NCBI GenBank assembly: GCA_017525905.1
Contig: JAFXSD010000022.1
Location: 1 to 64,000 of the forward strand
Origin: Elusimicrobiota bacterium
GTDB lineage: Bacteria; Elusimicrobiota; Endomicrobiia; Endomicrobiales; Endomicrobiaceae
Reading direction: 5' to 3'
DNA: 64,000 nt
Under the pieces are notes generated by a model. It did no database searches and was not told the DNA's origin. It saw only the letters and a list, made by a program, of their open reading frames with translations. Numbering within the stretch: position 1 is the first letter of the stretch; each line of letters begins with the position of its first letter. Below, piece by piece: positions 30,337 through 46,148 of the stretch. The position numbers were made by a program, and so were the translations under genes.

Positions 30337-33003
30337 ATGAAAAACTTATGGTCTTACGACAAGCAAGGTCAATGTGTTGTAAAAGATGCAAGAAGTTTAA
30401 AACAACCTTTAATTCACATGATAGCAAATTGTCCGAAATATTTTTCTATATGTGATAATTTTTTAAGAGGATTCTCAGGCTTTGATTATACGAGAATGTT
30501 CGGAGAATTCGACGGCCCGAACTTTCCTAAAGGACAGGCAAGATTTATTTGGATAAGAGAAGGAAAACAAACTTGGCTTGTTAACAATTACGATTTAACG
30601 GATACTCAAACTTCTAACCCGAAATATGAAATGGGACTAGGCTATGTAAATTTTTACGGCTCTTCTAAAAAATTAAATTTGGATGTTAAAACTACAATTT
30701 TTGTTCCGCTGGAAGAAATGGCAGAATTGTGGCTTGTAGATATCACAAATAATTCTAAAAAGGATAAAGTTATAGATTTTATACCAACGGTTCCTATTTA
30801 TGGCGGTAGCAGAGCTTATGTTGAATATCATAGAGATGTTGTAAGACTTTATAATAAAAGCGAAGTAAAAAACAGTATAAAAATTCTTCCCGGACTTGAA
30901 TGGATAGAAGGTTCAACGGATTCAAGTGATATTTGTTACTTTATGAGTGCAGAAACTCAAACCGGTAAGAAGGGCAACAGATTCTATTCTGACAGAGAAA
31001 CTTTTCTCGGACCAAACAATATGTGGTTAAAACCTGATTCAATATTGAACGATATTGCTCCGCAAAAACAATGTTACGGTAAAGAAGCCGTAGGTGCAAT
31101 AGAATTTAAAAAAATAAAAATTCCTGCAGGAAAAACCGTAAGTTTTGTTGTAATAAACGGCATAACGTTTACCGGCAGTAAAGATGCAGACAAATTAATA
31201 AAGAAATATTCATATAAAAAAGCGCTTAAAGCTTTTGATGATTTAAACAAATATTGGCTGGAAAGAGCTTCAAGAGTGCAAATAACAACGGCAAACAAAG
31301 AATTCGATAATTTATGGAACAATTGGTGGTGCTATCAATTATCAATGAGATATTGGTTTGGAAATACAGCTCATCCTCAAACAGACTATGGTTCAGATTT
31401 TGCGGGTTGGAGAGATTTTTGGCAGGATATGATGGCTGCAACGGTAATTGATCCGAAAGGTCTTGAAGAAAGAACAATGAAAACTCTTGAAGGTATAAGG
31501 CTTGACGGAACAAATGCTACAAGATTTTTTGCAAGGACAAAAGAGTTTGGCAGTGATGAAGTTAACGGTTTATGGTGCGATCATCCTTATTGGACGGCAC
31601 AAACAGTTATGATACTTGCAAACTTTTTAGGTGATAAAAAATTCTTGTTTAGAGACGGAATAGGATATTTTAAAGATTGTTACCAAAACAGAGGCGAGAG
31701 TAAAAACGATAAATGGAAAAAAGGTTATATCGAAAATCAAAAGACAACAACAGGTAAAAAATATACCGGAACGGTAATTGAACATATGCTTGTTCAAATA
31801 GAAACAATGTTTTATGATGTAGGAAACAATAATCTTTTAAAACAAAAAAGAGCAGATTGGAATGATGCTGTTGACCAAGTAAAAGGTGAAAATGTAACAT
31901 TTTCTTTCGCGCTTGCTCAAAACTGTAACGAGATTGCAGATTTGTTGGAAAAAACAGCAAACGATTTAAACATTAAAGAGATAGAAGTTTTTACGGAGTT
32001 GGCGGAACTTATCCAAAATTTTGATGATAATGCAAAGGATATTCCTGCAAAACAAAGACAAGCGGTTTTGGCAAAATATTTAAGTAAAGTTAACGATGCA
32101 ATTTCCGGTAAAAAAGTTAAAGTAAAAATTTCAAAGATATTGAAAGATTTAAGAACAAAAGCACAATTTGTTATAGATAATGCAAATAAAAAAGCTTTCA
32201 ACGGATATTATTACAGCGGGTACATTTTTTCAGACGGTAAACCTGTAGATACAATTTGGAATAAATCCGCATTAAATAAAAAGAATCCTACATCAAATGA
32301 TTTTGAAATGATGTTAATGCCGCAAACTTGGTCACTCGTTTCCGGAGGTGCAAAGAAGATCGGTGTAGAACAAAAAGTTATAGATTCGGTATTTAAATAT
32401 TTATTTGATAAAACTACCGGTGCATTAAAATTAAATTATCCTGCTTATACGAAATTTAACAAAACTATAGGAAGAATAACAGGATTTGCTCCAGGAACAA
32501 AAGAAAACAACGCTTTGTTTTCTCATGCAAACTTGTTTTTTGTTTGGGCTTTAATAAAACAAGGTATGCCGGATTTGGCATATAAAGTTTTTTCCGGAAT
32601 AAATCCTTTAAATCATGAACACGAAATAATAAGAACCGGCCCTTGGATACCGGAATATTATATTTCCAACGATAATCCTAACATTGCAGGTAGAGGAGAA
32701 TATCCTGTTTTAACAGGCTCTTGTGCTTGGACAAGATATGCTTTCCAAAACTTTTTCTTCGGCGTAAAAGGTGTTTTTGAAGGGTTGTCTATAGATCCGC
32801 ATTTGCCTGCAAACAAAGATTTTCAAAATTGTAAATTGTTTATAAAGTTTAGAAATGCAAATTACGATATTTCTTTTGAAAATCCGAAGTTAAAGAAAAA
32901 CTCAACGGCAAAGGAAATTATTGTTGATGGTAAAAAAATTGAAGGAAACATTATAAAACCGTTTAAGAACGGAACTCATAAAGTTTTGGTAGTATTGGGA
33001 TAA
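30337..33003 (+). CDS. Glycoside hydrolase family 94 (GT36-type) phosphorylase
   Basis: An 888-residue enzyme of the GH94 family, which split beta-linked disaccharides such as cellobiose or chitobiose with phosphate to give a sugar 1-phosphate. There is an N-terminal beta-sandwich (about 1-290), a helical linker, then the (alpha/alpha)6 barrel with YGSDFAGWRDFWQDMMA (substrate/phosphate region), GLWCDHPYWT and ADWNDAVD, where Asp510 is the expected general acid. Between ADWND and the next conserved segment (FNGYYYSGY) are about 110 residues, rather long, including a charged helical stretch. No signal peptide is present, so it works in the cytoplasm on imported sugar. Which disaccharide is used cannot be read. 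Confidence 0.85.
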   Translation: MKNLWSYDKQGQCVVKDARSLKQPLIHMIANCPKYFSICDNFLRGFSGFDYTRMFGEFDGPNFPKGQARFIWIREGKQTWLVNNYDLTDTQTSNPKYEMGLGYVNFYGSSKKLNLDVKTTIFVPLEEMAELWLVDITNNSKKDKVIDFIPTVPIYGGSRAYVEYHRDVVRLYNKSEVKNSIKILPGLEWIEGSTDSSDICYFMSAETQTGKKGNRFYSDRETFLGPNNMWLKPDSILNDIAPQKQCYGKEAVGAIEFKKIKIPAGKTVSFVVINGITFTGSKDADKLIKKYSYKKALKAFDDLNKYWLERASRVQITTANKEFDNLWNNWWCYQLSMRYWFGNTAHPQTDYGSDFAGWRDFWQDMMAATVIDPKGLEERTMKTLEGIRLDGTNATRFFARTKEFGSDEVNGLWCDHPYWTAQTVMILANFLGDKKFLFRDGIGYFKDCYQNRGESKNDKWKKGYIENQKTTTGKKYTGTVIEHMLVQIETMFYDVGNNNLLKQKRADWNDAVDQVKGENVTFSFALAQNCNEIADLLEKTANDLNIKEIEVFTELAELIQNFDDNAKDIPAKQRQAVLAKYLSKVNDAISGKKVKVKISKILKDLRTKAQFVIDNANKKAFNGYYYSGYIFSDGKPVDTIWNKSALNKKNPTSNDFEMMLMPQTWSLVSGGAKKIGVEQKVIDSVFKYLFDKTTGALKLNYPAYTKFNKTIGRITGFAPGTKENNALFSHANLFFVWALIKQGMPDLAYKVFSGINPLNHEHEIIRTGPWIPEYYISNDNPNIAGRGEYPVLTGSCAWTRYAFQNFFFGVKGVFEGLSIDPHLPANKDFQNCKLFIKFRNANYDISFENPKLKKNSTAKEIIVDGKKIEGNIIKPFKNGTHKVLVVLG

Positions 33004-33006
33004 AAT

Positions 33007-33525
33007 ATGAAAAAGCTATTAATATTACTTGTAGTATTTGTTTTTACATGTATAAACTTATATTCGGAAAATTTAGATGTAAGAGTGATAATCAAATCAA
33101 TGAATGTAATTTCTCCGGACGGAGAAACAAAAACTTATGTGGAACCGAGAAGTGTGCCGCCTATAGATTATGCGTCAACCATTATAGCAAACGGAATGTC
33201 AATTTTAAATTATCATTCGGTGGGAATTGTTTTAAAAAATCAGCAGGGAATTTTTATATCGAAAGATCCGATTACAAATATTTTAATGTTTTCTAAGGTG
33301 GAAAATACAAGATCCGGCCCTATCATAGTTTCTTTCAATGCAACAACTATAGCACAAATAGATGCCGATACAATTTTTTCTTTGCACTATGAGCCAAAAG
33401 ATAATTCCGTAACTTTGGCAATTATAGACGGACATGCGACACTCAAAAAGAATGAAAAAGAAATTGAGTTAACAACAGACAAAAAATATAAACATAAATT
33501 TATAGGCGGTTCTTATGCCATTTAA
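33007..33525 (+). CDS. Small exported protein, function unknown
   Basis: The 172-residue product starts with a clear signal peptide (KKLLILLVVFVFTCINLYSE, cleavage probably near residue 20). The mature part is predicted beta-rich. The end, with LAIIDGHATLKKNEKEIEL, resembles the small beta module of FecR-like periplasmic domains (VxxGxVxVxxxxxxxxL), but this is only a resemblance. It lies 3 nt after the phosphorylase stop and overlaps rmlC by 11 nt. So it is co-transcribed with both, without a known link to either. Confidence 0.65.
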   Translation: MKKLLILLVVFVFTCINLYSENLDVRVIIKSMNVISPDGETKTYVEPRSVPPIDYASTIIANGMSILNYHSVGIVLKNQQGIFISKDPITNILMFSKVENTRSGPIIVSFNATTIAQIDADTIFSLHYEPKDNSVTLAIIDGHATLKKNEKEIELTTDKKYKHKFIGGSYAI

Positions 33526-34075
33526 GTTTTCTTCTTTAAAAATAAAAGATGTCGTTTTAATACAATCCGTGAAGTTTAAAGATGACAGAGGTTTCTTTGA
33601 AGAAGTTTTTAAAATCCCGGATTTTAAAAACTTTGGAATAGATTTAACAGTTAAACAAATAAATTTTTCACATTCAACAAAAGGTGTGTTGAGGGGATTA
33701 CATTATCAGTTAGCTCCGTTTGCTCAAGCAAAATTAGTTAGAGTTATACACGGAAAAATTTTTGATGTTGCTGTAGATTTAAGATTGGGATCGGAAACTT
33801 TCGGTAAATGGGTAGGAGCAGAACTTTCCTCAAACGGACAAAATATGTTGTTTATTCCCGAAGGCTTTGCTCATGGTTTTGAAGTTTTATCGGATGAAGT
33901 TGATTTTGAATATTATTGTTCCAATATTTATTCTCCGGAACATGAAAGGGGTATTTTGTATAACGATTCTTTTTTAAATATCGAATGGCAGACATCAAAT
34001 CCAAAACTTTCAAAGAAAGACTTGGTATACCCTACTTTTGAGTATGCGGAACATAATTTTGAGTATAAACTATAA
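33515..34075 (+). CDS. rfbC: dTDP-4-dehydrorhamnose 3,5-epimerase RmlC
   Basis: RmlC epimerises dTDP-4-keto-6-deoxyglucose at C3 and C5. The 186-residue cupin has the conserved DDRGFFEEVF at the N-terminus, GVLRGLHYQ with the catalytic His, KLVRVIHGKIFDVAVDLR, the FIPEGFAHGFEVL segment and the YSPEHERGILYND end. It overlaps the exported-protein gene by 11 nt and is followed by rmlD after 47 nt. rmlB is in a different operon (5.1-6.0 kb). Confidence 0.95.
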   Translation: MPFKFSSLKIKDVVLIQSVKFKDDRGFFEEVFKIPDFKNFGIDLTVKQINFSHSTKGVLRGLHYQLAPFAQAKLVRVIHGKIFDVAVDLRLGSETFGKWVGAELSSNGQNMLFIPEGFAHGFEVLSDEVDFEYYCSNIYSPEHERGILYNDSFLNIEWQTSNPKLSKKDLVYPTFEYAEHNFEYKL

Positions 34076-34122
34076 ATTTATATTTTATAGTTAAAAGACT
34101 GTTAACAATCAAAGGTAAATTT

Positions 34123-34953
34123 ATGAAATATATTATTACAGGAAGCTCGGGACAATTAGCAAAAGAATTTATAAAGAAATTTACGGAATTAAACATTGAT
34201 TTTATTGCTCCGAGTGAACAAGAACTTGATATTACAAACAAAGAAAAGATTTCAGATGTTTTTTCTCAATTTAATCCTGATGTCGTTATAAATTGTGCTG
34301 CATATAACAATGTAGAATTAGCCGAACAAGATAATACTAAAGCTTTTTTAATAAATAAAACTGCCGTAACAAATTTAGTTGAAGAAACTAAAAAATATAA
34401 AGCAAAATTAGTTCATTTCAGCAGTGATTATGTTTTTGATGGCAAAAAGAAAGATTTTTATATAGAAACGGATGAACCCAATCCGTTAAACGAGTATGGT
34501 AAAAGCAAGCTTGCCGGAGAAAAAGAAGCATTAAAATATGATAAAAGTTTAGTTTGCAGATTGAGTTGGGTTACCGGTTATGGACAACAAAATTTTATTT
34601 ATAAACTTTCAGGCTGGTTAAAGAATAATAAAACAGTCAGTGTTTCCGAAGATGAAATATCTGTTCCGACATTTACTTTTGATATTGTAAATGTAATTAT
34701 AAAAGCATTAGATGAAAATTTGTCCGGATTATATCATCTTACAAATTCCGGTAAAGCCTCGAGATATGAAGTCGCAAAAGAATTTGTAAAACTTAGTAAT
34801 CTTGATAATGAATTGAAGCCGGTTTTAATGGCAAGTTTTGATTCCAAGGTGCAAAGACCTTTGTTTACGGCAATGTCAAACAAAAAAATATCCAAAGAAT
34901 TAAATATAAATATCCCAGACTGGAAACAGTCTATTCGGAAATTTATATCATAA
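34123..34953 (+). CDS. rfbD: dTDP-4-dehydrorhamnose reductase RmlD
   Basis: RmlD performs the last step to dTDP-L-rhamnose using NADPH. It is 276 residues long with TGSSGQLAKEF (nucleotide loop, residues 5-15), DVVINCAAYNNVELAEQD, SSDYVFDGKK, and the catalytic YGKSKLAGE. The downstream substrate-binding region keeps LSWVTGYG. Together with rmlC and the distant rmlB it gives three of the four steps; rmlA was not found. Confidence 0.93.
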   Translation: MKYIITGSSGQLAKEFIKKFTELNIDFIAPSEQELDITNKEKISDVFSQFNPDVVINCAAYNNVELAEQDNTKAFLINKTAVTNLVEETKKYKAKLVHFSSDYVFDGKKKDFYIETDEPNPLNEYGKSKLAGEKEALKYDKSLVCRLSWVTGYGQQNFIYKLSGWLKNNKTVSVSEDEISVPTFTFDIVNVIIKALDENLSGLYHLTNSGKASRYEVAKEFVKLSNLDNELKPVLMASFDSKVQRPLFTAMSNKKISKELNINIPDWKQSIRKFIS

Positions 34954-35017: not shown

Positions 35018-35560
35018 ATGGAGAAGAGCCTTTTTTTGTTACCATCTAAAAAGATAATTTCTTTAATATTGTCAGTTATGACAATATTAAATGTTTTTAG
35101 TGTCGTTCTTATATACAATGCCGAAAGTATAGAAGAGTCAAAGAACTATACTACAGATACAATTGCAAAATATTGTAATATCGCAGTAGATATTCCGATG
35201 AAACTTATGAGTCATTTTTTCAAGGATGATGTTTCAAATAGTATTGGAATGCTTGCACCGATAAAAAATTCAGACAATGGTAATAAAAAACAGGAAAAAG
35301 ATGGGTTGAACGATCTTTTTCAGTATGCGGTTGCCAATGATAACATATCTTCGGTTAATTTTGTCAAAAGTTTATTTTTCCCGGTTTTATTGCCTTTTTA
35401 TAATGTGGAAATAAGTAAGCATAATTGCAATATTGATGTTATAGTTTTGGAAATATTACTGTTTATTATATTATTCAATGGTTCTATTATGCTTGCCAGA
35501 GGAGATACGGAAGATATTATTAATAATACAAATATAGAAAGAAAAGTCCGTCTTGCATAA
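35018..35560 (+). CDS. Membrane protein of unknown function preceding the giant-protein gene
   Basis: The 180-residue product is not recognised. It has a hydrophobic N-terminal helix (about residues 12-33), a polar middle (34-115) that would be outside the cytoplasm, and a second hydrophobic helix (about 141-160), ending in a short basic tail. No cysteine or catalytic motif stands out. TACAAT (35004-35009) ends 8 nt before the ATG and there is no Shine-Dalgarno sequence, so a leaderless message is possible. Its stop codon lies in the loop of a terminator-like hairpin, after which the 2803-residue protein starts 37 nt later. The arrangement suggests an accessory or regulatory partner of the giant gene. 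Confidence 0.6.
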   Translation: MEKSLFLLPSKKIISLILSVMTILNVFSVVLIYNAESIEESKNYTTDTIAKYCNIAVDIPMKLMSHFFKDDVSNSIGMLAPIKNSDNGNKKQEKDGLNDLFQYAVANDNISSVNFVKSLFFPVLLPFYNVEISKHNCNIDVIVLEILLFIILFNGSIMLARGDTEDIINNTNIERKVRLA

Positions 35561-35585: not shown

Positions 35586-35597
35586 GTGGAGAAAACT

Positions 35598-38500
35598 ATG
35601 TTAAATAAAAAATTAAAGGAATTTTGGATAAAAAAAATTACAAGTGTGACAATTGCAACCTGTTTGATAATAACAAGCTTGCAAGGTTTGACATTTTCTA
35701 TGTCGGTACCTGTTAATACAGTACCTTTGTTGCCTCAAATTAGTACGAACATTATTCCATTTAATATCGGAAGAGTTACTGAAACAACCTATAACGGAGA
35801 CGGACAAGTACTTGTATTGATACAAGATTTACACAGTCATAAACAAACACAAGAAAATATAAACAGTATATTAAAAGTGTTGGATAACAAGTACGGAATA
35901 AAAAATATTTGGCTTGAAGGAGCAAGCGGACATCTTGATACAAGTTGGATATCCAAAATTCAAGATACAACAGAAAGGGAACAAGTTGTAAAGGTACTTT
36001 TAGAAAAAGGAATGCTTACCGGAGCAGAAATGTTTTCTATAAAATCCGGAAAAACAGATATATTAAAAGGAATAGAAAATAAAGAAGTATATTTAAAAAA
36101 CTTTAACAGATTGAATGAAATATATAGTAAGAAAGTTGAAATAGAAGAATACCTCCCGCAAATAAAAGCAATTCTTAAAGCAAAGACAGAAGGTTATTTT
36201 TCGATAAATAACAGAAAGATAAATAGTCTTCAGGAAAAGAATAAAGAAGGTAAAATAAGAGCTGACAAGTACTTTGCATATATTTTAAGAGCAATGAAAA
36301 AAGCCGGATTAAAGTTGTCTGATTACGAACAAATTTCCAAGTATGTATATGTTATGGCAAAACAAAAGAGAATAAATTTTAAAAGAGCAAATAAAGAAAT
36401 CAGAACAATAATAACAGAATTAAAAGAATTATCAACTTATCAACAGTATAGAGAGCTTTTAAACAAAGTAAATAACAAAGAGACCGAGACCGAATTTTAT
36501 TCGGAAATAAAGAAGTTTGCCGAACAGAAAGGAATACTTAATAAATATAAAGAAGCGGAGAAATTTTTTGAATATTTGACGTATAACGAGATGTTAAATC
36601 CGATAGAACTTGTTGAGCAGGAAGAAGAACTTATAGACGATATAGAGACAAGTTTTGCACAAAACGGATACGAGAAAGAAGTATTATTTTTGAAGAAATA
36701 TTTTAGGTTGATAGAAAGTTACTTAATGAACAAGATTACGGCGGACGAATACAGATATTTTGAAAACAACAGAGAAAGGTTTAAGCTGTTATGGACAAAA
36801 TACGTAGATATTGACGGTATAATAAACATAGATGAATATTTTAGTTTGTTTGACGACTTTTATAAAGACAATGTAGAAAGGAACAGATGTTTTATAGAAA
36901 ATATTACCGGTAAAAAGCCGGCAAAAGAAAAAGAAGCGATAGTTATAAAAGCCGGAGCGGAATATAATGCAAAAGCGATAGAAGAGTTAAGTAAAACGAA
37001 AACCGGGATAGATGTTGTTATAACCGGCGGATTTCACACGGGAGGCTTAAGCAGACTATTTGAAGAAGAGAAAATCAATTATATAGTAATAACACCGAAT
37101 GTAACGGAAGAGACGGTAACGAGTGAAAAATTATATGCAAATATGTTTGCGGAAGAATATGAGATAGTAAAAGAAAAATTTGCAAATATGCCGATATCGA
37201 ATATCATTTCTTTATTGGATGATACAAATAAAATAGAAAAAATAGAAGCAATTGAAAATGTCGTAAAAATAATAACAGTTGATGGTAAAGAAATATTTGT
37301 CGGTCGTGATGGTGTAATAACTGGAAAAGATGTTCAAAAAGAATCTTCTTTACAAACAAAATTAAGTGAGAAACAGGCAAAAACTGCTGCAGAAGCTTTT
37401 ATAAGTTTACAGGAATATTTAAAAAGAGAACGAGAAAATAAGAGAAGAGAAACAGCAGGAATTGCACCTTTAGATAATTCTAATTTGAGAGAAAAAACTC
37501 AAGAATTAATAAGTGGAATAACAGATAATAGTTTGAAATATGCTTTTAGTGAGAAAATTTCTAATTCTGCTCCTATTTTACAGACGAATGGAACCATCGA
37601 CCGGTTGGAAAGAGTTGCAAAATTTTTCGGTTTAAGAAACCCGAAAGAATTCAGAAAAAATCCGTTCGGAGTAGCTTTGGGTGCATTTTTGGAAACATTT
37701 AGCTTATGGAGAAAAGATTTTGCCGAACAGCATGAAAGTTGGACGATCTTGCAAGAAAAAGCACTAAAAAACATAAAAGAACAAAGTATATTAGCAGGAA
37801 TGGATGGAATAAGACTCGGTATGATACTGGGATTAGCATATGGAATATTATTTTCTAATTCTTTGTTTGGAGGATTAGTAGTGATTGTTAGTGCTGCAAC
37901 AATATGTAGTACCATTTCTTTTCTAGTAACGGAATGGGTACTCCATTATAAACATAATATAAATCATACCAACTATATGTTGCAAACCGGTGGCACTTCG
38001 GATAAGAAAACCGATGCGACAGGTATAAAAGATATTTTACCGATAAAAACAAAGAAACCTTTTAACATTCCCGGAATTATAAAAGAATTAAAGAGACGAG
38101 GAATAGAAAATAAAGAGCTGTTTAATTTTTTAGTTAAATTTAGGGAAGATAAATATATCGGGTTAATTAACGGCTTACTTAAAGAAAAAAATCTGCTGGA
38201 AGCTTTTGAACAAAAATTGGAGGGGGAATATGAACAAATACTCAATGAAGAAGATTTTTATATAACTTATGAGAAGGCAGAAAAAATCTATGAAGAAGAA
38301 ATGCATTTATTAAGAGCAACAGACAGAGCGGAATATGAGAGAATTAGTTCTTTTATAGGAAAGCCCGCAATAGAAGAATTTAAAAATTATATTAACAACA
38401 GAAAATCTACATTACTAAAACAGTGGAAAAGAATGTTAAGAGAAGATAAGTATACAAATGCCGAGAGGGTTTTAATAGCAAGAGGAATAAAACAATATTT

Positions 38501-41500
38501 AAGAAAAGCAAAAACATCCGCAATTCCCGTAGAATATATAGAGACAGCATTCGACAAATTTATAGAAAACTTTAAGAATACACAGATAGAAGAAGTAGAA
38601 CGATTCAACATATATGAACAATATTTAAAATGTATAACTGAACAGATAACTGCAGGAGGTAATAATCCGATAGTAAAAGAAGTGAGCTATAACTATAACG
38701 GAACAGAGGTACAAGGGAAATGGATCCGGATAAAAGGGAAAAAGAGCATTGAGGCAGAAGGTAAAGGAGATTTAGAATTAAATAAACAAATATTATCTGC
38801 AGTATCATCTGAGGAATGGTGTACAAGAGGAAGAGGAGGAGAATATATAGTATTAGAATGGCATGGCAGTGATTTTTATGTATTTATAGAGGATGGTCAA
38901 ATAAGATCTACATTAGGATTTGTTCCTGCGGAAGATTTAGAAGATTTAAAAACAGATCCGTGGTATTACGGATTGTTTGAGCAGGGAAATGGGCAGAACA
39001 ATATAGTTCCTGAAATATATGATGAAGCGGTGAAGGAGTTACAAAAAGAATTAGAATCAGGCAAATATCAGGATGAAGACGGATATAAAACATTACAAGA
39101 TATAGTAAATAAGAAGAGAGAAAAAAGAGAGAAGCAGAAAAAATTTTTTGAAAAGACAAAGGATTTAACGGATTATACGGATGAGACAATAAGGCAGATG
39201 TTTGTGGAAGCCTTTTCTGTAGTGATAACACAAGATGAGTATGGGAATTGGAATACCGTTCATGAAGTAACTGATTCGATGTTGGATGAAATGGCTGAAA
39301 TCGATATATCTATAGTAGAAAAATTTTTAAAGACAATAAAGAATGTAGAATTATCGGTGAGTATTTTAAGTGCTAATTATGCCAAATATATAGAAGATTT
39401 AAATGTCGGACAAGATTTAAAATTGGGAGTTAGATCTCTTAAAAAAGGAGTAAGTCTCAAAGCCGGTGGAGATGTAGATTTCCGAAATTTAATTGAAGTC
39501 GGGGAAGGAGTAACTGTCAGTGCCGGTGAAACTTTGATTTTAAGTAAAGTAACCGAAATAGGAGAAGGAGTAAGTCTCAGTGCCGGTGAAAATTTGTATT
39601 TAGATAAAGTAACTGAAATAGGAGAAAGAATAAGTCTTAGTGCCGGCAGAACTTTGAGTTTAGGATTAGCAAAACTGACAAAAGAAGCTACAGATAAAAT
39701 AAATGAATTTAAATTTAATTCGTTATCATTGTTGTCTGCAGAAAGTGTTGAGAACGGAGTAGAGTTAAATGTTGATGGAAATTTGGAACTGAGAAATGTA
39801 ACCGAAATAGGAGAAGGAGTAACTCTCAGCGCCGGTAACAATTTATTTTTAAATAATGTAAGTGCTTTGCCTAAGAAAGTAAATCTTATTGCCTATGAGA
39901 ATTTGTATTTAGAGAGATTAGCCGAAATAGAAGAAGAAGTAAGTCTTATAACCGGTAACCTCTTGCTTTTATATAACTTAACAGCTTTACCTGAAAATAC
40001 GGATAGTATTAAGTTATATTTTGATGATATAGAGTTATACTCGTATGATGAAGAACTTGAACAACAACTAATAGAAATAAGAGACAGAACAAAGAGAGAA
40101 TTAACTACCGAAGAAGAAATAGATAACCTTATACATGAATTGGAAGTTGCTGAGAAAAATTATAATCAAAACAAAACAGAAAAAAATAAGAAAAAATTAG
40201 AAGCAGCTTTTATCAATATAAAATTGGATGTAAAAAATATGTCTTTAGATACATTGTACGATATTGTGGAAAGAATATTTACAATAATGCAAAGATATTA
40301 CAATATGAGTCCTGAAGGATATTTTGAACAGCTAAACATGGTAAAAAGATTTTTAAAGGACAAAAAATATGATATTAAATCACAAACCGAAAAATATATG
40401 ATTGATGATAATCTGGACGTAGATAGAATGCAGTCAAAATTCCCGAATATGATAGTCTCCGCACAATCTATACCGGATAGTTACGGTGATAAAGATATAA
40501 TTGAAAATTTATATGTTGTCTTTAGTTTAATGTTGTCAGGATTAGGATCGAGATTGAACAGAACAGACTTTTTAAAAGCTGTATTCGTATTAGATAAAAA
40601 ACTTTTAGAGACAAAAAAGATACAAAATGAGTTTTTGAAAGAAAAAACAGAAAAAGAATTGGAACGAGCTGTAAAAACTTTAGATTTTTTAAGATACAGT
40701 GAAGAATATGAATCGTATGTGAGACAATATGCTGAAGAATCACAAACAGAAGGGTTAATTGATGACGAAGGGAATATTCTTAATCCCAATCAAAAAACAA
40801 AATCAATTGATTTAAAATTAAGAGTACAAACAAGTGAAGGTTGGAGAATGAAATCTTTGGCACAAATGATACTTGATTCTTTGTTAATAAAGAGTCAAGA
40901 AATCGGAGATAATTTTGCCGTAAATATACTTACGGATAACCAATCTATTCCCGCAATAAATGTTTTACTTGACAGTATAATAGAAGAAGGAGCTTTCGCA
41001 GGTAAGAAATACAGAGAAGTTTTAATGAACAAAAAAATAATTCAAACAACATTAGGTAGGAATATTACCGGCATTAGTTTACACAGAATGCATCCTTCAG
41101 TTCAATACGATGAAAATACGGGAATTTTTAATTTTTATACTGAACAATATCCTTTGGGCCATTCGAGATATGCTGTTGAATTGGGAGAACAATTGATGAG
41201 TGAAACTTCGTCTAATAAAGAAGAGGAGATAAATGTTGTAACAAATAGTGACAACTGGAAAGCAGGTAATTTATTTAACAAAATAATCGGATGGGTTGCC
41301 AAAACGAAAACACCCATAGCGATATTGGTAACAAAGAAAGGAACGAATCAGGGTGGTATTCCAATGTTAGTTTCTGAAACGATTAATGGAGAGGAATTCT
41401 TGTTTTATAAAATTATAGAATCCGCACAAGCGGAAGAAAACGATGAACTTAAGCAAAAATTCAATAATTCGCCCAATGCATTATATAATACCAATATGAT

Positions 41501-44009
41501 TGTAGAATCGAAAAGAGCATTTATGAAACAGATAAAACTTGCCGAGAAAAATATAAACGATTCTCAAAATTCTCAAATAAGAGAAAGAGTTAAGAGAGTT
41601 TATGGTTTAAGTACGGAAGAAGATTTAAAAGCTTTTATTAAAACAAAATTTGCTCTTGCAGATTTGATTGTAAATACTAAGACGAATGATGAGACAGAAG
41701 AAAAATTTATTCAACTTGAGGGGGCAATCGGTTCGGCTTTAATGGAATTAAGTAATCTAATGTATGTAATAAATGGTGAACATTTATTAAAGTTTGTTGT
41801 GTTAAATGAAAAAGAAAAAGATGAACTTTTTGGCGCAATGAAAAACAGCGACGATTTTTATTCATTCCTGCAAGCAATAGAGGAAATGGATGTTGAAGGA
41901 GAAAGAAGCAGTTTTCAACAAAATAATATGTCGAATTGTTTCGTTGATCCAAAAAGTCCATTGAAGAAATTAACCGTAAAGGGTGCGGTTAAGTTAGAAG
42001 ATTTGGAACTTAGGGGAGATTTTGTTTCGGTAATAAATAATTCAAAAAAAGAAATTATAATATCTCCGGAGATATTAAAAAAATATGATTTTGATATTTC
42101 CGATAATAGAATTATTTTGGAAAATATTAATATTGTTGTTGATGAAAAGGCTAATCTATTTGTGGAAAAAGATGGTGTTGTAATAATGACGGAAGAAGAA
42201 AGAATTCAACAAGCTGATGTTGTTGATGTTTCAGCAGATGCGGTAAAAGGAATAGTAGGAGTAACGAAGGTAAGTCTGTTAAGAACCAAACAATCTAATT
42301 CGCAGAAAATTACTCAAATTGTTGAAGGGGCAAACAACTTCTTATATTTAGACGAGCTGCAACAAGAATCTATAGAAATAGCAACAATGTTCAATGTAAA
42401 ACCGGAAACTATTTCAATAGTAGATGCAAACGATACAAAACGGATACGAGAAGCTATCGAAATAGCAGAAAACGGAACGAAAGTAAAGATGATAATTTTA
42501 AACTCTCAAGCGGGAGAAGTTACCGACGAAACAGGAAATGTAATATACGGTGAAGATAACAATGCATTGCTGGAACTTGCAAAGAAAACCGGCAATTTGG
42601 AAATAATAAAATATGAAACGCTCGAAGGAGAAACAGCCGCAGGAAGAGAAATTATCAGAGGTATTTTGGAAAATATAAAAGCTAAAAATATTATAGGGCA
42701 AGGTAATAAAAATGTTCTGTATATTACACCTTCACTTCTTGACGGCCGGGAAGACATTGTTTACGAATATTTGCAAGACGGAACGATTCTTTCGGTAAGT
42801 ACAAACAGTATCAAAGGAGCATTGGTAAAAGGTCTGTTGAACTATGGTAACTTAAAAGTTAAAACATTGGAAAATATGATAATACAACCAGCAAATATTT
42901 ACGGAACATTTAAAGTTGAAGATGTTACAGATGCAGTTCTTAAAGAACTTTGTTCGAAAGGAATACATACTGTTATGATGGAAGTTACCGATGCCGACAA
43001 AGATGCATTAAATAATGCATTAGTCAGAGCACAAAATGCTGAAATGGGAATTGTTGTATTTGGTGAAGGAGCAGAAAATATTAGTTTTGAAGGTATAGAG
43101 GTAGAAGTTGCTGTAAAAGGAGATTCACAAGATAAGAGACGAGTAGTGGAATATAATGAAGCACTAACAATGGAAAATTTATCAAAAGATGTTATAGTAA
43201 ATATTGCACAAAGAGAAGGTGCAAATATTGTAATGACACCGGAGAATATAAAGAGATTGATAAATGCCGGAGCAGCTATAGCATTTGACGGAGAAGTATT
43301 AAGGGAAGTTAGTAAAGAAAATACTGCAAAAAATGGAATAACGATGTTAGATATAGTAAAAGCGATGTTTACCGAAAATTCTCAACAAAAGGCTGCAAAA
43401 GCAAGAGCAAGAGGAATAAGAGCAGGAAGAAATATAGCTGTGAAAGCATTGTCGGCAGGAACAGACTTAAATGAACTAATAAATAATATAGATTCTATTT
43501 TAGATTTGATACAAAACAAAGAAAATGGGGCGTTGACTATAATCGGACAAATTCTTGGAAGAGAAAGGAAATTAGGCGAACTTCTCGATATTGATTCGAC
43601 AAGTTTAACCGGAAAAGAAGACGATTTGTTGGGAAAAACAGAAGGAATTTTGCAAGTAATAGAATTATCTAAGGTTGTAGATAATATAAAAGATATCGAC
43701 AGAATAGATAATATGAATGAACTTATGGCAATGCTTGTAGAATACAGAATGTTGACGGGAGAAAGTTATAATCCTCAAAAAGGAAAAGAAGTTATTAATG
43801 TTCTTTCGGATAAAACACATGATGAGATAATGAAAGATCTTAGAGAACAGCTCAAAGATGAAAATTTGTCAAAAACGGATAAAACATTTGTTTTGAGCGG
43901 AATAATTGATTTGCTTTTGGCAGATGACTTACGTATTGATGCACAGTTTGAAAAAATGTTTGAAGGTATGGATACCAAAGGTATACATGCAATGCTTTCA
44001 GCTGCATAG
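35598..44009 (+). CDS. Giant exported multidomain protein (2803 residues) with ChaN/Tiki-like N-terminus, beta-solenoid repeats and UDP-sugar-pyrophosphorylase-like region
   Basis: The start is ATG 35598 (GGAG 6 nt upstream); an earlier in-frame ATG at 35553 lies inside a hairpin. Residues 1-35 form a signal peptide. Residues about 65-510 resemble the ChaN/EreA/Tiki fold: LIQDLHSHKQTQENI near 72-86, WLEGASGH near 105 and VVITGGFHTGGLS near 473-485. Residues about 735-780 form a hydrophobic hairpin. Residues about 1268-1475 contain 20-residue repeats of the type VTEIGEGVSLSAGENLYLDK. Residues about 1615-2195 resemble eukaryotic-type UDP-sugar pyrophosphorylases: LSGLGSRLN, SLAQMILDSLL, YPLGHSRYAVEL, VVTNSDNW, NTNMIVESK and LTVKGAVKLEDLELRG. 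The last 600 residues are unassigned. Similar giants are known to me from Omnitrophota and Elusimicrobiota. Function is unknown. Confidence 0.8.
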   Translation: MLNKKLKEFWIKKITSVTIATCLIITSLQGLTFSMSVPVNTVPLLPQISTNIIPFNIGRVTETTYNGDGQVLVLIQDLHSHKQTQENINSILKVLDNKYGIKNIWLEGASGHLDTSWISKIQDTTEREQVVKVLLEKGMLTGAEMFSIKSGKTDILKGIENKEVYLKNFNRLNEIYSKKVEIEEYLPQIKAILKAKTEGYFSINNRKINSLQEKNKEGKIRADKYFAYILRAMKKAGLKLSDYEQISKYVYVMAKQKRINFKRANKEIRTIITELKELSTYQQYRELLNKVNNKETETEFYSEIKKFAEQKGILNKYKEAEKFFEYLTYNEMLNPIELVEQEEELIDDIETSFAQNGYEKEVLFLKKYFRLIESYLMNKITADEYRYFENNRERFKLLWTKYVDIDGIINIDEYFSLFDDFYKDNVERNRCFIENITGKKPAKEKEAIVIKAGAEYNAKAIEELSKTKTGIDVVITGGFHTGGLSRLFEEEKINYIVITPNVTEETVTSEKLYANMFAEEYEIVKEKFANMPISNIISLLDDTNKIEKIEAIENVVKIITVDGKEIFVGRDGVITGKDVQKESSLQTKLSEKQAKTAAEAFISLQEYLKRERENKRRETAGIAPLDNSNLREKTQELISGITDNSLKYAFSEKISNSAPILQTNGTIDRLERVAKFFGLRNPKEFRKNPFGVALGAFLETFSLWRKDFAEQHESWTILQEKALKNIKEQSILAGMDGIRLGMILGLAYGILFSNSLFGGLVVIVSAATICSTISFLVTEWVLHYKHNINHTNYMLQTGGTSDKKTDATGIKDILPIKTKKPFNIPGIIKELKRRGIENKELFNFLVKFREDKYIGLINGLLKEKNLLEAFEQKLEGEYEQILNEEDFYITYEKAEKIYEEEMHLLRATDRAEYERISSFIGKPAIEEFKNYINNRKSTLLKQWKRMLREDKYTNAERVLIARGIKQYLRKAKTSAIPVEYIETAFDKFIENFKNTQIEEVERFNIYEQYLKCITEQITAGGNNPIVKEVSYNYNGTEVQGKWIRIKGKKSIEAEGKGDLELNKQILSAVSSEEWCTRGRGGEYIVLEWHGSDFYVFIEDGQIRSTLGFVPAEDLEDLKTDPWYYGLFEQGNGQNNIVPEIYDEAVKELQKELESGKYQDEDGYKTLQDIVNKKREKREKQKKFFEKTKDLTDYTDETIRQMFVEAFSVVITQDEYGNWNTVHEVTDSMLDEMAEIDISIVEKFLKTIKNVELSVSILSANYAKYIEDLNVGQDLKLGVRSLKKGVSLKAGGDVDFRNLIEVGEGVTVSAGETLILSKVTEIGEGVSLSAGENLYLDKVTEIGERISLSAGRTLSLGLAKLTKEATDKINEFKFNSLSLLSAESVENGVELNVDGNLELRNVTEIGEGVTLSAGNNLFLNNVSALPKKVNLIAYENLYLERLAEIEEEVSLITGNLLLLYNLTALPENTDSIKLYFDDIELYSYDEELEQQLIEIRDRTKRELTTEEEIDNLIHELEVAEKNYNQNKTEKNKKKLEAAFINIKLDVKNMSLDTLYDIVERIFTIMQRYYNMSPEGYFEQLNMVKRFLKDKKYDIKSQTEKYMIDDNLDVDRMQSKFPNMIVSAQSIPDSYGDKDIIENLYVVFSLMLSGLGSRLNRTDFLKAVFVLDKKLLETKKIQNEFLKEKTEKELERAVKTLDFLRYSEEYESYVRQYAEESQTEGLIDDEGNILNPNQKTKSIDLKLRVQTSEGWRMKSLAQMILDSLLIKSQEIGDNFAVNILTDNQSIPAINVLLDSIIEEGAFAGKKYREVLMNKKIIQTTLGRNITGISLHRMHPSVQYDENTGIFNFYTEQYPLGHSRYAVELGEQLMSETSSNKEEEINVVTNSDNWKAGNLFNKIIGWVAKTKTPIAILVTKKGTNQGGIPMLVSETINGEEFLFYKIIESAQAEENDELKQKFNNSPNALYNTNMIVESKRAFMKQIKLAEKNINDSQNSQIRERVKRVYGLSTEEDLKAFIKTKFALADLIVNTKTNDETEEKFIQLEGAIGSALMELSNLMYVINGEHLLKFVVLNEKEKDELFGAMKNSDDFYSFLQAIEEMDVEGERSSFQQNNMSNCFVDPKSPLKKLTVKGAVKLEDLELRGDFVSVINNSKKEIIISPEILKKYDFDISDNRIILENINIVVDEKANLFVEKDGVVIMTEEERIQQADVVDVSADAVKGIVGVTKVSLLRTKQSNSQKITQIVEGANNFLYLDELQQESIEIATMFNVKPETISIVDANDTKRIREAIEIAENGTKVKMIILNSQAGEVTDETGNVIYGEDNNALLELAKKTGNLEIIKYETLEGETAAGREIIRGILENIKAKNIIGQGNKNVLYITPSLLDGREDIVYEYLQDGTILSVSTNSIKGALVKGLLNYGNLKVKTLENMIIQPANIYGTFKVEDVTDAVLKELCSKGIHTVMMEVTDADKDALNNALVRAQNAEMGIVVFGEGAENISFEGIEVEVAVKGDSQDKRRVVEYNEALTMENLSKDVIVNIAQREGANIVMTPENIKRLINAGAAIAFDGEVLREVSKENTAKNGITMLDIVKAMFTENSQQKAAKARARGIRAGRNIAVKALSAGTDLNELINNIDSILDLIQNKENGALTIIGQILGRERKLGELLDIDSTSLTGKEDDLLGKTEGILQVIELSKVVDNIKDIDRIDNMNELMAMLVEYRMLTGESYNPQKGKEVINVLSDKTHDEIMKDLREQLKDENLSKTDKTFVLSGIIDLLLADDLRIDAQFEKMFEGMDTKGIHAMLSAA
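39399..40020 (+). repeat. Array of 60-nt (20-residue) repeats in the giant gene
   Basis: About ten units with consensus (V/L)-(T/A)-E-I-G-E-G-V-(S/T)-L-S-A-G-x-N-L-x-L-x-x. The middle units at about 39485-39660 are the most alike; the later ones diverge. The alternating hydrophobic pattern fits coils of a beta-solenoid. Confidence 0.75.
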
Positions 44010-44189: not shown

Positions 44190-44888
44190 TTATGAAAATA
44201 ATCTTAGTTTTACTACTTTGAAAAGATATTTTATTAAAGTGAAAGGCTTTAATTTTGATTGACCTGAAACTCTTTCCAAAAATGCGATAGGATATTCCTT
44301 AATAATTGCCTTTGTTTTTTTTGTATAGTAGAGCATTTCCGTTACAATAAACGGATCTGAAGCTTTTAGTTTATCTATATATTGTTCTACAATTTCTTTC
44401 TTAAACATTCTGTAACCGGATGTAGCATCTGCAACTTTTACACCTATACAAAACTGTAAATATCTTCTTGAAAGATGACTTACTATTTGTCTTAAGAATC
44501 CTCTTTGTGTATCGGAACCGCCTTTAACATATCTTGAACCGATAACCACATCACAACTGTTAATAAGTTCTCTGAAATCTTTAATATATTTAGGATTGTG
44601 TGAACCGTCACCGTCTAATTCAACAAGATATTTGTAACCTTTTTGTATGCCCCACTTAAAAGCATCTATACCGGCGTACCCTCTGCCTCTTTTTTCTGTT
44701 CTTAACAACAAATGAACTTTGGAATTTTCTTTCTCCATGCCTTCTACAATTTTATATGTCCCGTCGGGAGAAATATCGTCGGCAACAAGAACTTCTATAT
44801 CTTCAACGCCGCAATTTAATATATCGTTTACAACTTTTTTTATGTTTGTTGCTTCGTTATAAGTACAAACAATCGCTAAAGTATCCAT
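44190..44888 (-). CDS. Polyprenol-phosphate mannosyl/glucosyltransferase (DPM1-like GT2)
   Basis: A 232-residue GT2 enzyme of the dolichol-phosphate-mannose-synthase type, which transfers a hexose to a polyprenyl phosphate at the membrane. It has AIVCTYNEATNIKKVV, VLVADDISPDGT, LLRTEKRGRGYAGIDAF, the metal-binding ELDGDGSHNP and the signature DVVIGSRYVKGGS, then ATSGYRMFKKE. No C-terminal transmembrane domain is present, as in the soluble catalytic type. ATG 44888 was chosen: AGAGG lies 6 nt upstream and an ATG 72 nt earlier would overlap the preceding gene with cysteine-rich out-of-family residues. It starts 11 nt after the GT9 stop. Confidence 0.87.
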   Translation of the reverse strand: MDTLAIVCTYNEATNIKKVVNDILNCGVEDIEVLVADDISPDGTYKIVEGMEKENSKVHLLLRTEKRGRGYAGIDAFKWGIQKGYKYLVELDGDGSHNPKYIKDFRELINSCDVVIGSRYVKGGSDTQRGFLRQIVSHLSRRYLQFCIGVKVADATSGYRMFKKEIVEQYIDKLKASDPFIVTEMLYYTKKTKAIIKEYPIAFLERVSGQSKLKPFTLIKYLFKVVKLRLFS

Positions 44889-44899
44889 TTTATCCTCTG

Positions 44900-46033
44900 T
44901 TAATAAATATAAGTTTGTATTGCATCTAAAACATTTTCCACAGAAACTTTGTCCATGCATTTAACTTTTTTATTACAATCCGGTTTATAACAACAATTAC
45001 ATTCCATAGACACTATTTTTATTCCTCTGCCATACATTTCAATTTCATTGTATGATGTAGGTCCGAAAATAGCAACAACATTCTTTTTGAGTCCTAATGC
45101 GGCATGCATTGCCATCGTATCACCGCAAACCACCAAATCACATAAATTTACCATTGCAAAAAATTCCTGCACTGAATTGTCGGTTCCGGTAGAATATACA
45201 TTTTTAATTTTTTGTTTAAGTATTAATTTTATTTCTTCTTCATCATCTTTTCCGCCGAGCAACAATATATTATAACCTTTAGATGATAAAATTTTTATAA
45301 GCTTTATATATTTTTCTATTCTCCATTTTTTCATAACCCATCTTTTTCCGGCACTTGGGTTAATGCCGATAACTTTATTTTTATTCAGTTTTAATGAAGA
45401 TTTTAATTTTTTTGCTTTTTGTTCCGCTTCTTTGGATATAGGAACAACTATTTCATAATTGTCTTTTTTTAGTTCGCAAATGTTTGCCATCCAATATTGG
45501 TAAGTGTGTTTGTTTTCTTTTTTTAAATTGTCATAAGCACTTGTAGGCAACCATTTTTTTGCATACTTATTTGAGCCTATGATTTTTCTTGAAGAATCAA
45601 GATAATAACCTATTATTTTATTTGCAAAAACAAGTTTAGTGAAAGATAAACTTTCAGGTGATAAATCTAAATTTATAACTATATCGTACTTTGTCGAAGA
45701 CAAAAATTCAAAAACTTTGTTATCGTTAGGAATAATAATATCTATATATTTGTTACCAACCAAAACATCAACGTTTTTTTTGTCTACCAGCCAATCTATC
45801 GTGGAATTTTTATATTTTTCTTTTAATCCTTCCAATATAAAAGTTGTTCTTAAAACATCTCCCATTGCTCCTAATTTAACAATCAAAATTTTTGTCTGTT
45901 TTGTTCTTTTGTTTATCGAAATATACTTTTTACAGGAAGAGCATACGAAAGCATTTTCCTTTTGATATTTACAAGGTCTGTCTAAAGGAAAGTTAATACA
46001 ATCTGAATATAATTTGTAATTTGTTTTTTTCAT
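44900..46033 (-). CDS. Glycosyltransferase family 9 (ADP-heptose:LPS heptosyltransferase-like)
   Basis: The 377-residue GT-B protein belongs to family 9, which adds heptose or similar sugars to the lipopolysaccharide core. Typical phrases are ILIVKLGAMGDVLRTTFIL (about residues 50-68), IGINPSAGKRWVMKKW, NILLLGGKDDEEEI, and the nucleotide-sugar site LVVCGDTMAMHAALGLKKNV with FGPTS. The N-terminus has a four-cysteine pattern (CINF, C-KYQ, CSSC) and the C-terminus a second (CNCCYKPDC, CMD), so it may carry zinc. The start at 46033 is preferred over one 48 nt upstream, which falls in the divergent promoter region. The TGCTAAAAT before it ends 8 nt from the ATG. It is in one unit with the DPM1-like gene. 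Confidence 0.87.
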   Translation of the reverse strand: MKKTNYKLYSDCINFPLDRPCKYQKENAFVCSSCKKYISINKRTKQTKILIVKLGAMGDVLRTTFILEGLKEKYKNSTIDWLVDKKNVDVLVGNKYIDIIIPNDNKVFEFLSSTKYDIVINLDLSPESLSFTKLVFANKIIGYYLDSSRKIIGSNKYAKKWLPTSAYDNLKKENKHTYQYWMANICELKKDNYEIVVPISKEAEQKAKKLKSSLKLNKNKVIGINPSAGKRWVMKKWRIEKYIKLIKILSSKGYNILLLGGKDDEEEIKLILKQKIKNVYSTGTDNSVQEFFAMVNLCDLVVCGDTMAMHAALGLKKNVVAIFGPTSYNEIEMYGRGIKIVSMECNCCYKPDCNKKVKCMDKVSVENVLDAIQTYIY

Positions 46034-46041
46034 ATTTGTTA

Positions 46042-46050
46042 ATTTTAGCA
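46042..46050 (-). promoter_or_regulatory. Extended -10 close to the GT9 start codon
   Basis: Minus-strand TGCTAAAAT ends 8 nt before the ATG at 46033. No clear -35 and no Shine-Dalgarno sequence. If used, transcription would begin about at the ATG. Confidence 0.35.
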
Positions 46051-46148
46051 AATTGTTTGAAAAAAAAATAGGTGAAAACAAAATATTCTGCTGTTTTTTA
46101 TGCGTTTCATATGTAAAAAGAATAACAAATAATGTAAAATATTACATT

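Follow-up and report, generated by a model that had tools for sequence, protein, structure and literature searches.

Introduction

Members of the Elusimicrobiota are described as enriched in “huge proteins” without COG assignment (PMC11573180), and giant ORFs of the Omnitrophota have been linked to symbiosis (PMC10066038). In the accessible portions of both sources, the likeness of these proteins to the family reported here is one of size, and a shared head and tail are not among the features described. The word “giant” is absent from a paper on genome evolution in the Endomicrobia (PMC11257099), and we found no description of a shared head or tail in the literature outside subscription papers, as far as the accessible portions of the sources go. 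On that partial literature, and judging from sequence comparisons, a giant family with a common head appears to have been previously unnamed.

Several known systems resemble parts of these giants. The Tiki superfamily (Tiki, TraB/PrgY, erythromycin esterase, ChaN of PF04187, and the RRSP of MARTX) resembles the N-terminal head in its beta-strand core with D-x-H, E, and GxxH at strand ends, as placed by an AF2 model of the head, and PF04187 recognizes distant members of the head family. The head differs in its length of 500 residues, its long helical insert, and its position at the N-terminus of giants, and in a direct comparison its profile does not match ChaN proper significantly. Tiki enzymes have a 2His/2Glu site (PMC6254334), one Glu position of which is occupied by Asp in the head. 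With UTP-glucose-1-phosphate uridylyltransferases and UDP-sugar pyrophosphorylases (PF01704), a central domain of the protein analyzed here shares the fold, most substrate-site motifs, and the invariant FxPxK lysine, whereas it sits in an apparently exported giant and has SGLGSR for the GG loop. C-terminal sorting signals (LPXTG, PEP-CTERM, the T9SS CTD, and type I signals) are, like the tail of the giants, conserved C-terminal signals on otherwise dissimilar proteins. The giant tail, however, is ~8 residues long and without a terminal transmembrane stretch, and no LPXTG or PEP motif was present in the tails read. Proteases of the Prc/CtpA type recognize nonpolar tails; Tsp, for example, acts on WVAAA (PMC5758756).

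The Gene and Its Features

The window, which is the whole stretch of 64,000 nucleotides that was analyzed, carries the giant gene on its forward strand with the following features (window coordinates).

35588–35591, forward: GGAG ribosome-binding site, 6 nt upstream of the ATG at 35598, read from the sequence
35598–44009, forward: whole gene, an uninterrupted open frame of 2803 codons plus stop
35598–35702, forward: apparent Sec signal peptide, residues 1–35 (basic start, hydrophobic core), recognized by eye; paralogs also have hydrophobic N-termini
35703–37256, forward: Tiki/ChaN-superfamily-like module, residues 36–553, with long helical insert (AF2 model, conserved residues, homologs)
35820–35840, forward: IQDLHSH motif (residues 75–81; D77, H79) at a beta-strand end; H79 invariant in 58 members, D77 in at least 90%
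35910–35933, forward: WLEGASGH motif (residues 105–112; E107) at a beta-strand end; E107 and G108 invariant
36858–36893, forward: FYKDNVERNRCF motif (N425, R428); N425, R428, and F432 invariant; inside the PF04187-matched region of distant members
37023–37046, forward: TGGFHTGG motif (residues 476–483; H480) at a beta-strand end; G477, G478, and H480 invariant
37812–37943, forward: hydrophobic hairpin, residues 739–782, from sequence; its region recurs in other giants
38031–38990, forward: block of residues 812–1131, 87.5% identical to paralog C22; mosaic boundary
38814–38846, forward: EWCTRGRGGEY motif of a small module; surrounding region homologous in L131/L142
39447–40019, forward: 20-residue repeats, residues ~1284–1474, of solenoid-like period (hydrophobicity autocorrelation)
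40515–42137, forward: UDP-sugar pyrophosphorylase-like domain, residues ~1640–2180 (paralog match, profile, AF2/Foldseek)
41955–42797, forward: module common to other giants, residues ~2120–2400 (sequence homology)
42765–43982, forward: C-terminal modules, residues ~2390–2795, 37–55% identical to giants of the genus
43983–44006, forward: tail IHAMLSAA; family consensus [IVY][RK]x[ILM]L[AS]AA-COOH

An earlier note, made from the letters of this DNA, had proposed that one gene encodes a 2803-residue protein with a signal peptide. The single gene was borne out, in that the frame is unbroken from start to stop and the G+C content is unequal between its codon positions in the pattern expected for coding DNA. 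The ATG at 35598 is preferred as the start over an in-frame TTG at 35553 because the GGAG sits 6 nt before it. Comparison of residues 812–1131 (320 codons) with a paralog gave a dN/dS of ~0.2, which indicates purifying selection where this was testable. The N-terminus does resemble a signal peptide by eye. Misassembly or non-expression of the long frame was considered and is rejected because long intact frames occur in dozens of genomes and because of the dN/dS of ~0.2. The whole window protein had no usable match in Pfam or among PDB sequences, and its one NCBIfam match (E 0.022) was at chance level, far under the cut-off of that model.

Immediately upstream of the giant, at 35018–35560, is a 180-residue orphan whose N-terminus is signal-like and whose C-terminal part includes a hydrophobic stretch; it was without a match in Pfam and NCBIfam. 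A GH94 phosphorylase and the dTDP-rhamnose genes rmlC and rmlD are also located upstream (30337–34953), and two glycosyltransferases are located downstream (44190–46081). Nothing was seen tying the GH94, rmlC, rmlD, or glycosyltransferase neighbors to the giant.

The N-Terminal Head

The AF2 model of the head, made from 58 sequences (pLDDT 87.9, pTM 0.87), places D77-x-H79, E107, and H480 at the ends of core beta strands. These four residues, two His and two acidic, compose a Tiki-type residue set. The motifs first noticed in the head are present at residues 75–81, 105–112, and 476–483, and in the alignment of 58 family heads H79, E107, R428, G477, G478, and H480 are invariant. Across classes, a 50-row alignment had the D, H, and E conserved in 100% and the GGFH His in 98% of rows. 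Distant members have the same residue pattern, often with RD or RN ahead of the GGFH motif, and the endomicrobial and distant head sets form one family by hhalign (E 5e-63).

Comparisons with described families were more variable in outcome. PF04187 (“Tiki superfamily, ChaN”) matched 6 of 33 distant members at E ≤1, the best of them (4e-7) above the curated cut-off, and in a separate family search it matched two giants of one genome, one above the cut-off. The window protein itself had no Pfam match, PF04187 included. The head profile did not match 12 Elusimicrobiota ChaN proteins significantly (hhalign, probability 2%); with the profile of distant members, the segment aligned to ChaN was the GGFH/GNGH region despite a probability of 2%. 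When the head model was compared by Foldseek with PDB and viral models, coiled-coil matches dominated; none was significant, and those to EreC and BcR135 were weak (E 0.7–3). The TraB and erythromycin-esterase Pfam models had no match in 100 genomes of the phylum. The head likely belongs to the Tiki superfamily, at superfamily level and not to ChaN proper; it is graded as likely because the ChaN profile comparison was not significant and the Foldseek matches were weak. The ChaN/EreA/Tiki resemblance originally suggested for this module thus stands at the superfamily level, on the AF2 model, the invariant residues, and the PF04187 matches of distant members, and fails for ChaN proper.

Enzyme Folds and Mosaic Middles

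The earlier note had also suspected a nucleotidyltransferase-like region, and both profile and fold comparisons support this. Residues 1832–2179 match a paralog in which Pfam UDPGP (PF01704) exceeds its cut-off. A profile of 17 homologs retrieved 16 PDB chains, all of them UTP-glucose-1-phosphate uridylyltransferases (best E 6e-18). The AF2 model of the region (pLDDT 78.6) gave a best Foldseek E of 3.6e-12, and the 50 matches listed were all UDP-sugar pyrophosphorylases. By these predictions, residues 1640–2180 are a UDP-sugar pyrophosphorylase fold. The domain retains PLGH, NSDN, a GG pair, YNTN, and FxxxK2082, with lysine 2082 invariant. Its nucleotide loop is altered, as the GG nucleotide-binding loop is not present and SGLGSR is found where several homologs have NGG(L/I)G.

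Pfam searches of the giants in the same genome identified PPDK_N, PEP-utilizer, ABC1 kinase, M48 peptidase, metallophosphatase, and UDPGP domains, and one giant has the four PGM/PMM domain types in order. By eye, catalytic motifs are intact in the PGM (TASHNP, DVDGDR, RPSGTEP), M48 (HELQH), ABC1 (HADLHTGN), and PEP-utilizer (GGVLSHAA) domains; the nucleotide loop of the window UGPase is the exception to retained motifs among the embedded enzymes. Of the remaining modules that had been pointed out, the hydrophobic hairpin corresponds to a hydrophobic segment at residues 739–782, and the 20-residue repeat period is significant by autocorrelation (lag-20 hydrophobicity autocorrelation of 0.40 vs. 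a 99.9% shuffle maximum of 0.30). A match to phrog_16467 near EWCTRGRGGEY was weak (E 0.06). The ~600 C-terminal residues that had been left unassigned turn out to be modules common to other giants of the genus. A mosaic junction is placed at the block of residues 812–1131 because this block is 87.5% identical to C22, whereas the heads are 60% identical. From such comparisons, the middles of the giants are mosaic and may include enzyme folds.

Copies and Distribution of the Family

By homology, the window gene is one of ~22 paralogs in its genome and belongs to a giant family of predicted exported type that is found across much of the Elusimicrobiota. A search of its own genome with residues 1–601 matched 22 places. 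Twenty-one family frames, counting one fragment (C4_12) placed by its tail alone and several frames truncated by contig ends, total 64,382 residues and take up 9.5% of the 2.03-Mb assembly; the longest giant has 11,683 residues. The estimated contamination of this assembly is 7.4%, yet the heads closest to the window copy are from genomes of the same genus. Some copies are arranged in tandem: at G000:C83:45986-87100, the 11,683-residue giant is followed, after 66 bases, by a 1998-residue giant, and C111 has a similar tandem start. At G000:C4:10921-13843 there is a 498-residue stand-alone head without a tail. Upstream of it, a frame truncated by the contig end encodes the last part of a multi-helix membrane protein, which bears the tail LLACA.

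The search of other genomes for the shared N-terminal motif, which the earlier note had called for, uncovered a family with mosaic middles. The link to giants of the Elusimicrobiota raised in that note was borne out and is larger than proposed, with ~22 paralogs in the own genome and, when a 58-head profile was used, 16–61 copies in each of 10 genomes of other classes. With a single sequence as query, 59 of 248 Elusimicrobiota genomes matched; within the class Endomicrobia, the family was found in 49 of 96. Among named genome contigs, a scan found one relative, in Candidatus Endomicrobium macrotermitis (44% identity over residues 1–520). In a scan of viral contigs, the sole relative, a weak one, was a 2106-residue member with a head on IMGVR_UViG_3300045144_000334 (L173), which is filed as viral and is probably a bacterial contig. 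Giants of other classes (L174, L176, L180–L184, and L189) have a [FL]WxxRR/K-like motif right after the signal peptide; this motif, absent from the window protein, is possibly a second export motif.

A genus with reduced genomes (g2), probably intracellular and presumably Endomicrobiellum, has kept a copy in 12 of 42 genomes, and one copy in that genus (G084) has five stops. No family copy was found in the single 1.6-Mb contig of G023, which is probably the free-living E. proavitum, so the family would not be required for free-living life. A tree of 58 heads does not group the 17 copies of the own genome as a single clade; many of them are placed among the heads of other genomes. A recent species-specific burst is rejected on these grounds, and much of the paralogy is old because the own-genome heads are scattered in this way.

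The C-Terminal Tail

In a first count, the tail was present in 32 of 35 family members vs. 1 of 96 other ORFs. When the count was repeated on a larger set of loci, the extreme C-terminus fitted [LIMVK][LIKM]x[ASC]A in 33 of the 38 members from the Endomicrobia. The tail pattern was fitted by 9 of 119 ORFs that had been classed as non-family, namely eight C-terminal pieces of family members separated from their heads and C4_12; with the eight pieces set aside, the tail was in 1 of 111 other ORFs. These counts, including the Fisher p of 1.7e-20 obtained with all nine kept as controls, are descriptive and no independent test because the pattern was drawn from the same tails, having been composed after they were viewed, and members with common ancestry are not independent. 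The 300 residues upstream of the tail fell into 14 clusters (blastp, E <1e-3; “unrelated” here means no similarity detectable at that threshold), with the tail in the sampled representative of 12 and a near-variant in 2. As read from these sequences, Endomicrobia C-termini without detectable mutual similarity nearly always end in an 8-residue hydrophobic/alanine tail. Of 15 members from other classes, 10 have Ala as the last residue and 2 have the strict tail pattern.

Of 15 genomes, 14 had a Prc match over the cut-off; G017 did not, and it is also without giants. Prc is a candidate reader of the tail only, not a specific one, because it is present in G023 and G001, which have no giants. The HlyD family of type I secretion was below its cut-off in all 15 genomes. 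The tmRNA genes at G000:C83:31599-31990 (L220) and at L222 encode an unusual 27-residue tag ending AFMPIAA, a reading by ARAGORN that may be wrong.

Discussion

We tentatively favor, as quite possible, a reading of the family as modular giants exported by Sec, with a Tiki-type hydrolase head, a C-terminal tag that marks complete chains, and middles that act outside the cell. The signal-peptide-like N-termini suggest that Sec would export the giant chain. The head would be a hydrolase, either a peptidase or an esterase, because its conserved D-x-H, E, and GGFH set resembles the Tiki 2His/2Glu site. A periplasmic or envelope factor that binds C-termini may read the tail once export is complete, the obvious candidate being a Prc/CtpA-type PDZ protease, and such reading would limit maturation or retention to full-length chains. 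The variable middles would then bind or act on extracellular partners (neighboring cells, protists, or polymers), and this would explain their diversity and the loss of the family in most reduced, probably intracellular relatives. Against this reading are the nucleotide-dependent enzymes, which have no obvious substrate beyond the cytosol, and the weaker tail outside the Endomicrobia (10 of 15 ending in Ala, two strict). A bolder form of it is a so-far-unknown two-ended maturation, in which a dedicated factor reads the octapeptide tag and only complete, Sec-exported, Tiki-headed giants with nucleotide-using enzymes are installed outside; we consider this rather unlikely.

Other readings of the middles assign the embedded enzymes different fates. 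If the giants were multi-effector proteins delivered into neighboring or host cells, where ATP, UTP, and PEP let embedded enzymes work, the nucleotide-using enzymes would be explained. The intact catalytic motifs in the PGM, PPDK_N/PEP-utilizer, ABC1-kinase, and M48 domains of paralogs fit such delivery, as do the Tiki domains that serve as effectors in other giant secreted proteins (PMC6254334) and the link of Omnitrophota giant ORFs to predation or host attachment in the accessible part of that study (PMC10066038). However, no delivery machinery was found (HlyD was under its cut-off in 15 of 15 genomes), the reduced, probably intracellular genus has lost the family in most of its genomes, and in the own-genome stretches listed the copies are flanked by housekeeping genes, not secretion operons, so we think delivery unlikely. 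The same degree of doubt applies to structural surface giants, i.e., coats, fibers, or adhesins in which old enzyme folds would be ligand-binding or scaffold blocks and the tail an anchor. Repeats, helical blocks, hydrophobic segments, mosaic change, and the altered nucleotide loop of the window UGPase are all consistent with such a role, and a coat or adhesin role is proposed for the Omnitrophota giants in what is accessible of PMC10066038, but catalytic motifs are retained in several embedded enzymes and in the head, and Pfam found no Ig, cadherin, or lectin repeats in the giants scanned. That the giants are polyproteins, cleaved into separate enzymes by the head or another protease, seems very improbable to us: the head is of a peptidase-type superfamily, whole multi-domain enzymes lie inside (as with the ordered set of four PGM/PMM domain types), and one paralog has an M48 domain, but an unsystematic look noticed no recurrent cleavage motif between modules.

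The tail has likewise been considered in other terms. It ends in -AA, as ssrA tags do, and the own tmRNA tag ends in PIAA (ARAGORN), so that the tail could be an ssrA-like degradation or quality-control tag that clears chains left in the cytoplasm. When checked with the own and distant tmRNA genes, this idea was weakened and now appears improbable, as the own tag does not fit [ILM]L[AS]AA, and in other classes the tmRNA tags end in LALAA, unlike the giants there, of which just 2 of 15 have the tail pattern. Certain type I substrates, HasA among them, may close with a comparably short hydrophobic/Ala motif, and this would favor reading the tail as the C-terminal signal by which a type I secretion system exports the giants. 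The signal-peptide-like N-termini of the giants and an HlyD family that is under the cut-off in every one of the 15 genomes make this extremely improbable.

Whichever reading holds for the middles and the tail, the common head, together with the common tail in the Endomicrobia, brings what were separate orphans together in a single family, which makes up about a tenth of its own genome. Viewing these proteins as a family makes the export, processing, and function of the giants testable.
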